A DNA stretch of 29,383 bases from a virus: positions 10 through 29,392 of the IMG/VR virus record IMGVR_UViG_3300000128_000004, one strand, 5' to 3'. The notes under the pieces were generated by a model that was not told the origin of the DNA, did not search any database, and saw only the letters and a program-made list of their open reading frames with translations. The position numbers and the translations under genes are program-made. Every line of letters starts with the position of its first letter. Within the stretch, counting starts at the first letter, position 1. This document shows positions 2,346 to 23,986 of the stretch, in pieces.

Positions 2346-2794
2346 TAATATTCTTTATCGTCTAGGTTTATTCTGTTACGAATAGCAAATGCTAAATTAT
2401 CACAAGTTTTAATACATTCTTGATAATAGTCCATGTGAGATTGTAACATTTCCATTTGGGTTCTTAAATGAGATAAATCTGCTTTAATAAAAGCAACCTT
2501 TTCTCCGCTTGTTAATTTGATGTCATAGTCAATTGAATATTCCCTATACTTAATTTTATAGTATCTGTCGTATGCACCTTGTCTTTTTTGTTTTGTTGTT
2601 TTAAAGTCTGTAATTTTATCTAATAAGATTTGCCTATAAGATAACATGTTTACTTGGCATTCTGCTAAATGACGAACTTCTTTTAATAAGCTAACTAAAT
2701 GACTTATTTTTACTTTCCAATCATCTCTATCTTTAGCTAGTCTCTTTGCTAATTCCTCATTAGCACCCCCTGTCGCCATATCATTATACTCCAT
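2345..2794 (-). CDS. uvsY: UvsY-like recombination mediator protein
   Basis: This 149-aa, mostly helical protein is rich in Lys, Tyr and Gln. T4 UvsY (137 aa) loads the UvsX recombinase onto gp32-coated single-stranded DNA. Shared layout: a helix with a Y/L-rich start (residues 48-62), a basic stretch (67-88, including KQKRQGAYDRYYKIKYRE), a lysine-containing segment around 93-105, and a final helical part (107-142) ending in AFAIRNRI, comparable to the T4 C-terminal helix. Sequence identity to T4 looks low, so the call rests on layout, size and its position directly before uvsW, which mirrors the T4 neighbourhood. It starts at an ATG overlapping the upstream stop by one base; an ATG five codons further in is an alternative start. 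No uvsX is in the window. Confidence 0.68.
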   Translation of the reverse strand: MEYNDMATGGANEELAKRLAKDRDDWKVKISHLVSLLKEVRHLAECQVNMLSYRQILLDKITDFKTTKQKRQGAYDRYYKIKYREYSIDYDIKLTSGEKVAFIKADLSHLRTQMEMLQSHMDYYQECIKTCDNLAFAIRNRINLDDKEY

Positions 2795-3015
2795 TAAAAT
2801 ATACCTTTATCATTATTAATCTTTTTAAAACCCTTTACTTTAGGCTGAAACTTCTTTTTAGGTGTTGGTATAGAAAAATTAGTTTTTACTTTTTTTATTT
2901 CAGATTTACTAAATGTAGCAAATAATTTTAACTTTTTATTACTATTTTCTAAATCTTTATAAAAGTCATCTACCTCTTCACTCACAAAATTATTATAATT
3001 TTTTAAACTCATCAT
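2794..3015 (-). CDS. Small protein with capsid-targeting-like N-terminus and basic C-terminus
   Basis: This 73-aa protein lies between the primase and uvsY genes. It starts MMSLKNYNNFVSEE; from the second Met the pattern K-x-Y-x-x-F-[VI]-x-E matches the T4 internal-protein targeting peptide MKTYQEFIAE. The N-terminal third is acidic (EEVDDFYKDLE) and the rest is strongly basic, with Lys-rich segments around 27-31, 38-44 and 52-69. The initiating ATGATGA overlaps the primase stop by four bases, so translation is probably coupled. I do not recognise a family. It may be an uncharacterised small protein of the uvsY.-1/-2 type, or a DNA-binding internal head protein; the second idea rests only on the N-terminal match. 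Confidence 0.7.
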   Translation of the reverse strand: MMSLKNYNNFVSEEVDDFYKDLENSNKKLKLFATFSKSEIKKVKTNFSIPTPKKKFQPKVKGFKKINNDKGIF

Positions 3016-5548: not shown

Positions 5549-6208
5549 CTAGTTATTAGCCTTTAGTGCTTTAAGTATAAAGTAGGCATCGACTATGTCA
5601 TCAATGGGTTTAGGAATTTTAATGCTGAAGTCTTTTCCTTGACACCATTTCCATAATTTATTAGATCTTAAGCTCTTATCATTAAGGACATCATCTTGGA
5701 ATGCTTTAGCCATATAATGTTTATTAGCATTTCCTTTCCCAGCCAATTTTTTAACATGAGATGGTTGAAAGACAGATAAATTTTCAATAGAGTACTTATC
5801 TATTAGTTCCTTTCTTAAAAATGTATTATATTGAATTATGTCTATAAATGAATTACCTTTAGAGCCATATGAAAATCCTTCTAAGGCAACAGAAACTTCA
5901 TCTCCTTCAAATAATGTAGAAAATATATTAACCATAAGAGAACTTATATTTCCAGCATCTTGTAACTTTTGTCGTTCTCTAGGTAAAAATTCTTTACTAG
6001 TTACATCTCTATTGTAAGGAAATCCTAATAAAGCAGAGTCATCCATTAATTCTTTATGCACACTAAATGATTTAGGTATTTTTCTACCTTCTTCATCCCA
6101 TATACGATTTCCGTAATTAAAAAAAGTTATAAAGTGATATTTACCGTCGGCTGTTTCAATACAGGCACCAGGGCTATTTAATGAAAAGTCAATTCCTATG
6201 TGAATCAT
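5549..6208 (-). CDS. RuvC-like Holliday junction resolvase (RNase H fold)
   Basis: This 219-aa protein has the acidic residues expected of RuvC-type junction nucleases: D7 in HIGIDFSL, E110 in VALEGFSYG, and D203, D204 and D207 in KPIDDIVDAYFILKAL. Between them, FQPSHVKKLAGKGNANKHYM (147-166) matches the RuvC-family stretch around its conserved Lys and Gly residues. RuvC-like enzymes cut four-way junctions and would process recombination and replication intermediates before packaging. T4 does this with the unrelated endonuclease VII (gp49), so this would be a replacement of function. It begins five nt after the glycine-zipper gene. The family call is firm; the actual DNA substrate is inferred. 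No RuvA or RuvB partner is visible. Confidence 0.82.
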   Translation of the reverse strand: MIHIGIDFSLNSPGACIETADGKYHFITFFNYGNRIWDEEGRKIPKSFSVHKELMDDSALLGFPYNRDVTSKEFLPRERQKLQDAGNISSLMVNIFSTLFEGDEVSVALEGFSYGSKGNSFIDIIQYNTFLRKELIDKYSIENLSVFQPSHVKKLAGKGNANKHYMAKAFQDDVLNDKSLRSNKLWKWCQGKDFSIKIPKPIDDIVDAYFILKALKANN

Positions 6209-6213
6209 TCTAA

Positions 6214-6570
6214 TTATATTCTCTTGCCGATAACTGCACCTAGCGCAGCACCTACAAGACGTGAGGTTAATAAATCATAAAGAACACCTTTAGTAACACC
6301 TAATACTTTAGCTACAGCCTTACCTATAGTTTTACCTAAAGCAAAACCAGTTAAACCACCAAAGATACTTCCTAGTAAACCTTCATTAATTATTTCTTCA
6401 ACGCAGTCTTCTAAGTTTTTACCTTCTTTCTGAGCTTCGAGAATTCTTTCTACTGCTACATCAATTGCAGCATCTTGTTCTTTAGTTAGCTCATGAGATT
6501 CATTTAATAAATCCTGTATGTCTAAAGAGTCTTCTTTGCTTTCGGTTAAATAATCTTTAAAGGTTTTCAT
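6214..6570 (-). CDS. Glycine-zipper protein with capsid-targeting-like N-terminus
   Basis: The 118-aa protein starts MKTFKDYLTES, closely matching the T4 capsid-targeting peptide MKTYQEFIAE, which gp21 cleaves after the Glu. Residues 11-63 are acidic and helical and contain further (L/I)-x-E sites (LNE 22-24, ILE 43-45, INE 61-63). Residues 64-118 form a Gly/Ala-rich hydrophobic domain with an unusually regular small-xxx-small array: G67, G71, G75, G79, G83, A87, G91, G95, then G107, G111, G115. Such glycine zippers pack membrane helices. A cleavable head-targeting peptide joined to a membrane-active domain suggests an internal protein packed in the capsid and possibly ejected into the host membrane. 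This is inference; a small structural or inner-membrane protein is the alternative. No known family is recognised. Confidence 0.8.
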   Translation of the reverse strand: MKTFKDYLTESKEDSLDIQDLLNESHELTKEQDAAIDVAVERILEAQKEGKNLEDCVEEIINEGLLGSIFGGLTGFALGKTIGKAVAKVLGVTKGVLYDLLTSRLVGAALGAVIGKRI

Positions 6571-6584
6571 TTGTATTCTTTATT

Positions 6585-6592
6585 TGTTTATA
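6585..6592 (-). promoter_or_regulatory. Possible late promoter box (TATAAACA)
   Basis: Minus-strand TATAAACA matches seven of eight bases of the T4 late box TATAAATA. It sits in the 24-nt gap before the glycine-zipper gene, ending 14 nt before its ATG at 6570. Position is suitable for a short leader, but the gap is AT-rich and chance is possible. Confidence 0.28.
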
Positions 6593-6594
6593 TA

Positions 6595-7149
6595 TTAAGC
6601 TACGTTAACAACGACATCTAAGACATTATAACTAAATTCAATATCAAAAGTTTGGAATTCAATAGTGTTACTTGAAAAGTTTAAATCCAATGCACCTATA
6701 TTTGAAATAAACATATCCTTTAATTGAATAGTGACAAATACTGTACCATCTGCATCTAACATTTGCACACCAACACCTTCCGGTAAATAAGGATGCTTAC
6801 CACTTAATTTATAATAGTAATCAAACATTTCAACAGCCATCCAATAATTAACATAACCGTCAAATGCCTGCATAGTAACAGTTAATGATTTATCAAATAA
6901 TTGTTGCTTAGGTAAACTAGATCTAAATGCACGTTGGTTACCTGGATAATCTACTTGTGTTACTGGATCAAATGATGGTCCTGGTAAATTTAATGACTGT
7001 ATACCATAATTCCAATAATCTATAGGTTCTTTTATTAAACCGCCTGGTATCCTATTAAGAAATGGTTTATACTTTTTAGCAATTGGCTCAGGTATAAAAT
7101 TTCTAGGGAAGTCAAATTTAAATTGGTTATTTCTTGCGCTTAATATCAT
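6595..7149 (-). CDS. Tail tube family protein, T4 gp19-like
   Basis: At 184 aa it is slightly longer than T4 gp19 (163 aa), which forms the inner tail tube. The C-terminal stretch IGALDLNFSSNTIEFQTFDI (about 152-171) parallels the gp19 ending NVGELQLDWDSNNEIQTFEV. The middle (about 85-110) contains DKSLTVTMQAFDGYVNYW, comparable to the gp19 strand and helix around WTVTVMNDEAHDARQKFVDW. A Pro-rich N-terminal extension (residues 15-70) with IPGGLIKEPIDYW is not typical of gp19 itself, so the protein could be a tube-fold baseplate protein such as a tube initiator (gp48/gp54 type) rather than the main tube subunit. It is the last of the virion genes before the glycine-zipper gene. Confidence 0.65.
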   Translation of the reverse strand: MILSARNNQFKFDFPRNFIPEPIAKKYKPFLNRIPGGLIKEPIDYWNYGIQSLNLPGPSFDPVTQVDYPGNQRAFRSSLPKQQLFDKSLTVTMQAFDGYVNYWMAVEMFDYYYKLSGKHPYLPEGVGVQMLDADGTVFVTIQLKDMFISNIGALDLNFSSNTIEFQTFDIEFSYNVLDVVVNVA

Positions 7150-21865: not shown

Positions 21866-23986
21866 TTATTTGATGCAATCATATGCAAAATTTAACACAC
21901 CTTGCTCTGTACATATTAAATCAATGATAGGAATATCATTTAATTTTGAATTAGGTATAGTTGCAATTAATTTACCAAACGAACCAGTATTAAGTCTGCT
22001 TGGGGCATCAGTGTATATTTTTATATCTCTTGATCCTATAAGAAGAACATTATTAAATGTTAGCCTCATAACTTGACCAGTTCTCCACTGTATATCAGTA
22101 TCATCAACATAAATAGAAATATCACCATTTGCCTGGTTAATAGTATCCAATCTTAACATATTAGTATATGGAAATAAATCCACAAATACACTAGGAGCAA
22201 CTACATTTAAATTTAAAGGTGCAGTTTGCGTAATAGGAACATTACCATTATCAAGAGGTACCATTAACTTATAAGCCTGTACATTATTAGATATTTGAAT
22301 TTGATTAGGTGTATTAGTATTAACAGTTATTCCTGTTCCTTGTCTAACAACATCTGTATTATATTGTAAAGTTGTAGCAACCTCGCCATTAGCTAATGCC
22401 TGAATCTCATCAGAGTTTTTAGCAATTAAATCTAATAATGTAGTACTGCTTGCAAACGCTAATGAAGCATTATCAAGCTGAGTTTGTAAATTATTAATTT
22501 GTAATTGTAAAAATGCAGATGTGCTAACTGAATTAAGCGTATTTTCAACAGATGCCAATCTTATTTCCATATCGGCTATTTCTAATTGCTGTCTTTGGAA
22601 TATTTGAGCTGATGCTTGTAATTGCGCAGATGCATCTGAAAATAATCCCATTGAAAAAGTATTATAATCATTTATTATTGTATCAATACCTGCACTACCT
22701 GGGGAAGCGTCAAACCTTAAATTAATTTTAAATCCATAACTGTTACCATTTTGGCCAGTTACAAAATTAGGTTTAAATTTTGGATATCTTTGAATATATC
22801 CACCATCAGTAGTTGGTGTTACATTATCTAATACTAAAATACCGTATAAATTAGTTTTTGTTTTAGATGAATCACTCAAGTCTACCATATCATAATAAAC
22901 CGCCACTGCATTAAATTCAAATGATTCAGCTAAATCCGTTCCATTAAATTGAGGTATAGAAGCTATAGTTGCATCCTGTACAATTTGTTGATAATTATTA
23001 GGATTAAAATCTACAGAGATTCCATCTAATTCAGATCTTACATAGGCAGAAGCAGAAAACCCTGGTGGGTTATTGTAATCAGCAGCATATTTTTGAATAT
23101 TAGCATTAAGAACACTAGTAAATGTTGTAGGTTCAGTAAAGTAAGCATCTACTGTATTGGAAGTAACACCCGGACCTAATCCCATCCAATCAGCAGCAGG
23201 ATCTGTATAACCAGCAGGGCCTGTTCCTTGTAATTGTTGATCATAATCATAAAATGCAAATATATCTAATCCTTGTGGGTGAACTGTTGTTGAGTTCCTT
23301 CCCATTATAAATTCACTTGTACCTTGTATTTTTAATGATGGTTGATAATTCGTATCAGAAATAGAATCAAAGAGGATAGTAGGTGTTCTACCTACCTCTG
23401 TCGGTACATTAATATATAATTCTGTGTAAGCTTCACCAGCCTTATCTACATTATTTACAATATCAATTTCACCGATATATCTAACTACTCTTCTGTATTG
23501 TCTAGTTCCTGTAAGTGCTTCATCTTCTTCAACAAATCTAGGTGCTGTTATGCTACCTGCTTTTTCTAAAACAGTAGCTTCTCTAAATCTCATAGCGCCA
23601 GTTTCCTTTAACCACTTAAAGAATACCCTCTCGGTAACAGTTAGGTTTGTAGTGTTATCATATGTTGGATCACTAATAATAAGTTCTTCTAAATTCAGCG
23701 CATAGTTTTGAAGACTTTCAGTAAAATTAACATTAGGATCACCTTTTAAACCACCATTCCATATTGCGCCATCTATTGTATCAAACTGCATGTAATTTTG
23801 AAAATTACTAAATGTGTTTGGGTCTAACCTATCAAAGTCTGGTAAATTAAGAAGCACAAACTTAGAAAAGACTAATTTAAGCTCGTCATTATTAAGAGTT
23901 CTAGATAAGTCTTTAGCAGAGGAAGAGAACGTATAAAACGATCCCCCATCTGCTTGCGGAGTTCTGATTAAGGGCGTTGTTGCCAT
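21866..23986 (-). CDS. Putative tail/baseplate structural protein, 706 aa
   Basis: The N-terminus (IRTPQADGGSFYTFSSSAKD, residues 7-26) and the following NDELKLVFSKFVLLNLPDFD (about 34-53) look like a conserved structural opening seen in marine T4-like phages as far as I recall; I could not check this. The body is beta-rich. Residues about 455-535 form a long helical coiled-coil stretch (LQASAQIFQRQQLEIADMEI, LQLQINNLQTQLDN), followed by a compact C-terminal beta domain (about 540-706). This head-coil-domain order suggests an elongated oligomeric protein. It starts 22 nt after the 216-aa gene. The role is inferred from context. Confidence 0.72.
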   Translation of the reverse strand: MATTPLIRTPQADGGSFYTFSSSAKDLSRTLNNDELKLVFSKFVLLNLPDFDRLDPNTFSNFQNYMQFDTIDGAIWNGGLKGDPNVNFTESLQNYALNLEELIISDPTYDNTTNLTVTERVFFKWLKETGAMRFREATVLEKAGSITAPRFVEEDEALTGTRQYRRVVRYIGEIDIVNNVDKAGEAYTELYINVPTEVGRTPTILFDSISDTNYQPSLKIQGTSEFIMGRNSTTVHPQGLDIFAFYDYDQQLQGTGPAGYTDPAADWMGLGPGVTSNTVDAYFTEPTTFTSVLNANIQKYAADYNNPPGFSASAYVRSELDGISVDFNPNNYQQIVQDATIASIPQFNGTDLAESFEFNAVAVYYDMVDLSDSSKTKTNLYGILVLDNVTPTTDGGYIQRYPKFKPNFVTGQNGNSYGFKINLRFDASPGSAGIDTIINDYNTFSMGLFSDASAQLQASAQIFQRQQLEIADMEIRLASVENTLNSVSTSAFLQLQINNLQTQLDNASLAFASSTTLLDLIAKNSDEIQALANGEVATTLQYNTDVVRQGTGITVNTNTPNQIQISNNVQAYKLMVPLDNGNVPITQTAPLNLNVVAPSVFVDLFPYTNMLRLDTINQANGDISIYVDDTDIQWRTGQVMRLTFNNVLLIGSRDIKIYTDAPSRLNTGSFGKLIATIPNSKLNDIPIIDLICTEQGVLNFAYDCIK

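Follow-up and report, generated by a model that had tools for sequence, protein, structure and literature searches.

A 118-aa protein encoded on the minus strand at positions 6214..6570 of the window (the whole 29,383-base stretch of DNA analysed here, part of a 44,234-base IMG/VR record, G000) begins with what is, to judge from its residues, very probably a T4-type capsid-targeting sequence (CTS), and ends in a glycine zipper, which is the most conserved stretch nearby. Sequence searches indicate that the protein is shared by hundreds of large phages of marine and gut origin. Tentatively, it may be either the channel for DNA entry through the inner membrane or the link between prohead and membrane in a large group of T4-like giant phages, made as a capsid-targeted, protease-activated precursor and belonging to a set of a dozen to about 40 tagged cargo proteins; we regard this reading as possible rather than probable.

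Gene, relatives and N-terminal peptide

The window carries T4-like baseplate and tail genes and replication-type genes for a UvsW-like helicase, a UvsY-like protein, a primase and a gp32-like SSB, together with GroES-like, RuvC-like and tail tube genes. The conserved neighbours of the zipper gene are a gp19-like tail tube gene upstream (6595..7149, minus), which is matched in 84 of 88 loci, and a RuvC-like resolvase gene downstream (5549..6208, minus), which is matched in 81 of the 88. A sequence-only reading had described an ORF at this place, with MKTFKDYLTE|S as residues 1-11, L/I-x-E triplets directly before residues 11, 25, 46 and 64, and small residues at positions 67, 71, 75, 79, 83, 87, 91 and 95 and again at 107, 111 and 115; the ORF is real, lies on the minus strand (6570..6214), and has all of these residues at the positions given. 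The dN/dS values among relatives are 0.04 for residues 1-10, 0.39 for 11-22, 0.15 for 23-63 and 0.13 for 64-118, which argues that the gene is not a chance ORF. The constrained ends, with a drifting stretch just behind the targeting peptide, fit a signal plus a working domain.

Relatives in IMG/VR numbered 151 in a first scan and at least 511 and at least 526 in later profile scans. No relative was found in 85,000 bacterial and archaeal genomes, and the protein is therefore, at that sensitivity, confined to phages. Among annotated phage records, relatives occur in LR756500 (462 kb, 51% identity) and in 15 records of Lak Prevotella megaphages (34-40%). There are four architectures among the relatives. 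Clade A, the clade of the window (44 distinct sequences), has the order MKTFKDYLTE...INEG-zipper, and its sister clade B (34 distinct sequences, including that of LR756500) starts with MKTFNEYLVE or MKDTKTFNEYLVEQ. In L177 and L178, the same C-terminal domain directly follows LNE|G and closes a different protein of 216-218 aa. The Lak homologue, of 108 aa, starts with MSEKYNNLFEG and has VDEG before a partly degraded zipper. The expected association of the N-terminal peptide with the zipper spacing thus holds generally among homologues, but not in Lak, where no MKTF-type peptide is recognisable and the zipper is partial. Beside the tube gene of Tenacibaculum and Chryseobacterium phages, and of other huge phages with a tube homologue, no zipper gene was detectable; the protein is therefore not universally needed.

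T4 internal proteins (IPs) carry an N-terminal capsid-targeting propeptide of 10-19 residues that is removed by gp21, and mutation of IPIII revealed that residues 4 and 7 govern targeting and residues 8 and 10 govern processing (PMC9026906). IPI starts with MKTFKEF, and IPII and IPIII start with MKTYQEFIAE; codons 1-10 of the window gene (6541..6570, minus) encode MKTFKDYLTE, with F4, Y7, L8 and E10 as the equivalents of the IPIII determinants. The aromatic-aromatic-aliphatic-Glu spacing is found in 44/44 sequences of clade A and 31/34 of clade B. A nine-column CTS profile was trained on 21 LR756500 N-termini alone, with segments after internal methionines as the null. The 99.5% null level is exceeded by 37 of 683 N-termini in LR756500 (3.4 expected; training sequences are among the 37), and by 6/217 in G001 (181,663 bases, the contig of L025), 7/212 in G010 and 10/200 in G011 (about 1 expected each). 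Applied to 263 T4 ORFs, all outside the training, the profile placed ipII first, ipIII second and gp61.1 third, followed by a sharp drop in score; since the T4 scores fall steeply below the top three, the counts do not reflect a general N-terminal bias. The window protein's own score has p=0.0024 against the null. A fixed-position N-terminal motif had given the T4 IPs low ranks, the peptides of T4 and the window being 3 residues shorter than the group consensus, and a small offset was then allowed; this one method change was introduced after the first result was seen, a point to keep in mind when weighing the ranking. CTS-like starts are also present on many otherwise unrelated proteins of the same genomes (MKYIKEYEEFLNE-type in LR756500, MKHIKLFEQFLNE-type in G010 and G011, and MKSLSSYLTEA-type in L177), and in L177 and L178 a series of short CTS-like proteins is encoded after the zipper gene. 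The T4-like capsid-targeting N-terminus proposed earlier is supported by the blind cross-phage test, by a tag common to many unrelated proteins of the same genomes and by the match to the IPIII determinants.

Upstream of the zipper gene lies a late-promoter-like element, AATATATAAACAAATA (6581..6596, minus), which clade A retains even in members where the sequence around it has diverged. Its core, ATATATAA, occurs at most 45 nt upstream of 25 of the 217 G001 genes (1.0 expected), many of which are structural or CTS genes. They include the genes for the portal, the protease and tail and baseplate proteins, the zipper gene itself, a CTS protein at 22041 that adjoins the major head protein, and CTS-like genes at 76376, 77476, 121159, 174235, 177346 and 180966. 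Judged from this distribution, the ATATATAA element looks like a late promoter. A second promoter-like element of G001, CATATAAAAA, precedes six other genes; it was not found upstream of genes in three other genomes checked.

Candidate processing sites and the zipper domain

T4 gp21 cuts after L/I-x-E (PMC9026906). Candidate sites of this type lie after residues 10, 24, 45 and 63 of the window protein, and cleavage would create a new N-terminus at S11, S25 or G64 (GLLGSIFGGLTGFALGK). The gp21-type protease on which the proposed processing depends is indeed encoded in related genomes: its family, phrog_207, was present in 7/7 tested related virus records with the zipper gene, the window's own 44-kb record being a fragment. 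G001 encodes a portal protein, a gp21-type protease, a major head protein and a late sigma factor, and in Lak the zipper gene lies about 4 kb, a few genes, from the prohead protease gene. The G001 protease (L087:18182-19903) comprises 573 aa and continues into a long repetitive scaffold-like region, in which YSEYxAE/YxxYLGE units are repeated; by its sequence, it is apparently a protease-scaffold fusion.

The second candidate site, LNE|S (codons 22-25; 6496..6507, minus), belongs to an [LIM]-x-E-[SGA] motif near residue 24 that is retained by 44/44 sequences of clade A and 32/34 of clade B. The boundary site INE|G (codons 61-64; 6379..6390, minus) is canonical in 43/44 clade A sequences, in LR756500 and in L177/L178 (LNE|G). 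In clade B, 13/34 sequences have I/L/V-N-E-G and most others T-N-E-G, and Lak has V-D-E. E63-G64 is invariant in 22 aligned relatives and falls where helix 53-63 is predicted to give way to helix 65-90. The suggestion that an INE site could release the zipper is supported as regards a candidate site at a predicted domain boundary, but P3 drifts to Thr in part of clade B, and the E-G invariance could reflect the start of helix 65-90 instead of cleavage. Internal (LIVF)NE(AGS) sites in CTS proteins were enriched in G001 only (OR 6.1); when the class was defined more strictly, three other genomes gave no convincing enrichment, and one control motif was raised too. This enrichment was given little weight because the G001 result was not replicated.

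Codons 64-118 (6217..6381, minus) encode the glycine-zipper helical domain. Its run of 8 small residues at spacing 4 is unusual, as a run of 8, counted at spacing 3, 4 or 7, arises in 0.44% of composition shuffles; positions 99 and 103 are Asp and Ser. Residues G67, G71, G75, G79, G83, G91, G95, G107, G111 and G115 and the pair E63-G64 never vary in 78 distinct homologues, and the 22 aligned sequences all agree at E63, G64, G71, G79, K84, L90, G91, T102, S103, L105, A109, G111, A112 and G115. When the window is compared with G010, G011 and LR756500, identity is 73-80% in the zipper core, 38-45% in the tube and 57-58% in UvsW; the conservation of the C-terminal zipper domain exceeds that of the tail tube, the primase and UvsW.

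The net charge is -12 over residues 1-63 and +6 over residues 64-118. The highest mean hydropathy over 19 residues is 1.57 (96-114), followed by 1.35 (60-78); these values are borderline and fall below the 1.6 that usually marks a clear membrane helix. Helix 65-90 contains lysines 80, 84 and 88. An AlphaFold2 model built from 22 sequences (mean pLDDT 76.9, pTM 0.68) predicted helices at 30-48, 53-63, 65-90, 96-101 and 104-117, with a break at G64. The remaining four models had mean pLDDT values of 51-69, and the helix packing is therefore not to be trusted. No significant fold match was obtained with Foldseek against viral models and the PDB, and no match in PHROGs. Three Pfam glycine-zipper families scored below their cut-offs (PF13488, 17.0 bits against 25; PF05433, 13.3 against 24.2; PF13441, 10.8 against 28.9). 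An acidic propeptide shielding a marginally hydrophobic, basic zipper peptide would suit soluble storage with later insertion, but it would fit a soluble bundle too.

Possible roles in the head and at the membrane

The explanation that we consider best, at somewhat less than an even chance, is a late protein of the head core that loses its acidic propeptide and whose basic zipper is packed with the DNA and acts at the host inner membrane during entry. From the sequence, we infer processing, packaging, ejection and membrane insertion as follows. Residues 1-10 would bind the prohead scaffold core and bring the protein into the head, a step that the sequence supports well, and a gp21-type protease would remove the acidic propeptide after E10, E24 and/or E63. 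The remaining basic fragment would be 25-118 or, more likely, 64-118; its predicted helices, presumably packed by the small residues, would be stored with the DNA. On infection, the fragment would exit via the tail, either before the DNA or together with it, and the zipper helices would assemble in the host inner membrane as a passage for the DNA and the other tagged cargo. The CTS profile, the protease in all seven records, the shared late-promoter-like element, the invariant E-G and the frozen zipper core speak for this explanation, whereas the borderline hydropathy, lysines 80/84/88, the Thr at P3 in part of clade B and the lack of a fold match speak against it. In contractile-tailed phages, moreover, breaching of the envelope is usually ascribed to tail proteins.

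The known systems offer partial parallels. Among them are IPI, IPII and IPIII of T4, together with Alt. No relation to the IPs was detected for the mature part of the window protein, a helical glycine-zipper domain by prediction, and the propeptide of the window protein, in contrast to the short one of the T4 IPs, may extend to 63 residues with several candidate sites; its packaging is read from sequence. T7 gp14/15/16 and P22 gp7/16/20 are internal proteins that exit the head and form an envelope passage (PMC8954989), a role like that proposed for the window protein. However, no sequence or fold match to these ejection proteins was found for it (PHROGs, Foldseek), and they belong to short-tailed phages and are far larger than the 55 residues of fragment 64-118. 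In the T6SS effector Tde1, glycine zippers are needed for inner-membrane permeation, and the GxxxG runs of Tde1 and of tape measure proteins have been proposed to insert into or permeabilise the inner membrane, as we propose for the window zipper (PMC10240207). The zipper of Tde1 is the N-terminal part of a DNase effector, and its likeness to the window protein is one of spacing.

The main rival, itself unlikely in our estimate, is that the protein anchors the assembling prohead to the membrane: the CTS would be held in the scaffold core and the zipper in the inner membrane of the producing cell, until cleavage at INE|G frees the matured prohead and leaves the zipper behind, absent from virions. 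In T4, prohead assembly begins at the inner membrane, and the proheads come off it when gp21 proteolysis takes place; SPN3US proheads without proteolysis remain on the membrane (PMC9026906). The membrane-bound portal initiator of T4 requires gp40 (PMC9958956), a head-vertex assembly chaperone whose function is membrane-associated, as that of an anchor would be, and whose N-terminus (MNKDDLDLDLEIIDESP...) is not CTS-like by the profile. Such attachment until proteolysis (PMC9026906; PMC9958956) favours an anchor, as do the domain order of core-binder, cleavage site and zipper and the strong conservation, which fits an assembly function. However, the tag is common to many CTS proteins, whose simplest reading is as cargo, the hydropathy is borderline, and cleavage after residues 10 and 24 would release the zipper already; to our knowledge, T4 prohead release works without such a zipper protein. 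Also rather improbable is a soluble internal head protein, in which a zipper oligomer would organise the core or bind DNA or the portal through its charge of +6, with no membrane role. The basic mature part, the acidic propeptide, lysines 80, 84 and 88 and the borderline hydropathy are consistent with such a protein, and GxxxG packing is known in soluble helical bundles too. Nevertheless, invariant GxxxGxxxG runs in both helices and largely hydrophobic faces are typical of membrane zippers, and the nearest Pfam matches, though below cut-off, are by name glycine-zipper families of membrane proteins.

A product of the tube operon that acts in the tail, with an N-terminus merely resembling a CTS, would account for the fixed position beside the tube gene in the marine clades and for a weak tape-measure match of the L177 homologue (E=0.02). 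We consider it very unlikely, as the zipper gene has its own promoter-like element, the CTS profile result stands against it, and the Lak gene lies close to that for the prohead protease, with no tube match found in the 12-20-kb Lak loci. An injected factor for host takeover or superinfection exclusion, like IPI (anti-restriction) or Imm, is the least probable of the alternatives. T4 IPs are injected, IPI being an anti-restriction protein and IPIII, required on one host strain, being thought to act against a defence (PMC9026906, PMC9391042), but T-even internal proteins are highly diverse outside the CTS (PMC3012670). The window protein is, in contrast, extremely conserved, and a C-terminal domain more conserved than the tube, primase and UvsW is the opposite of what an arms-race protein would show. 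The early-takeover reading was set aside on these grounds, and the former suggestion of exclusion of other phages or host inhibition is weakened by the same comparison with tail tube and replication genes. Because this domain has hardly changed, whereas the internal proteins of T-even phages have only the CTS in common (PMC3012670), the inner-membrane DNA-entry role is preferred over host takeover. If the CTS reading is true, the zipper protein would be a nearly frozen member of the cargo, and it would open two long-standing questions to testing: which component makes the inner-membrane passage of T4-like phages, and which one tethers proheads to the membrane until proteolysis.

Other proteins with capsid-targeting-like starts

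CTS-like N-termini of the MK[YH]IKxYEEFLNE type are found on about 10-40 otherwise unrelated proteins per genome (LR756500.1, L097-L106; G001, L087-L096; G010, L267-L275; G011, L276-L284), and most of those scanned gave no family match. The tagged set is predicted from sequence to be capsid cargo. If the CTS reading is true, the capsid cargo of uncultivated huge phages could be listed from sequence, at this number of proteins per genome, most of them of unknown function. CTS cargo as a kind of protein is already known. Within the limits of our searches, what appears to be new is the idea of cargo in the form of a near-invariant glycine-zipper peptide, and that of listing, through the CTS, what uncultivated huge phages pack into their capsids. 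The zipper family was not found under any name in sequence libraries or the literature within the searches made.

In the window, a 73-aa ORF with a CTS-like N-terminus (MMSLKNYNNFVSE; MMSLKNYNNFVSEE) lies between the primase and UvsY-like genes (2794..3015, minus) and has a counterpart in G001 at 172004; it would be a member of the same tagged set if the CTS reading is right. T4 gene 61.1 (L285:18966-19130, minus) encodes a protein that starts with MKTFKEFIKEDMVAGD, the third-best CTS match in T4, and by this start gp61.1 may be an unrecognised capsid-targeted protein. A CTS-bearing protein of 421-427 aa occurs in G001 (L095:15985-17256; 175985), LR756500 (267941) and G011 (70945). The G001 copy contains an EKTDGQN stretch that resembles the KxDG motif of nucleotidyltransferases and ligases, and the protein has no PHROGs match and no Pfam match above cut-off; it is possibly a packaged nucleic-acid enzyme. 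A CTS protein of 148 aa with a glycine-rich hydrophobic stretch (PITLTFAIAGIGIAFGP), present in G010 (L274:10576-11019; 150576) and G011 (123750), is by its composition a candidate for a second packaged membrane-active protein. Several Lak proteins near the zipper gene (L084, L085 and L179) have starts of a similar pattern ending in LFE or LMES (MNKNIRDTMNILFES, MKKYIYNLMESLF and MSEKYNNLFEG), which, going by these few cases, are perhaps the Lak version of the targeting peptide. Repeats of the NWNTSSVTDMxxMFxxxxxFNQ type are present in a protein of the window's own record (L082:14761-15324), and similar NWNTSSVTDM-type repeats are found in the Lak gene directly after the zipper gene (L179:6357-7832), which has a CTS-like start too.
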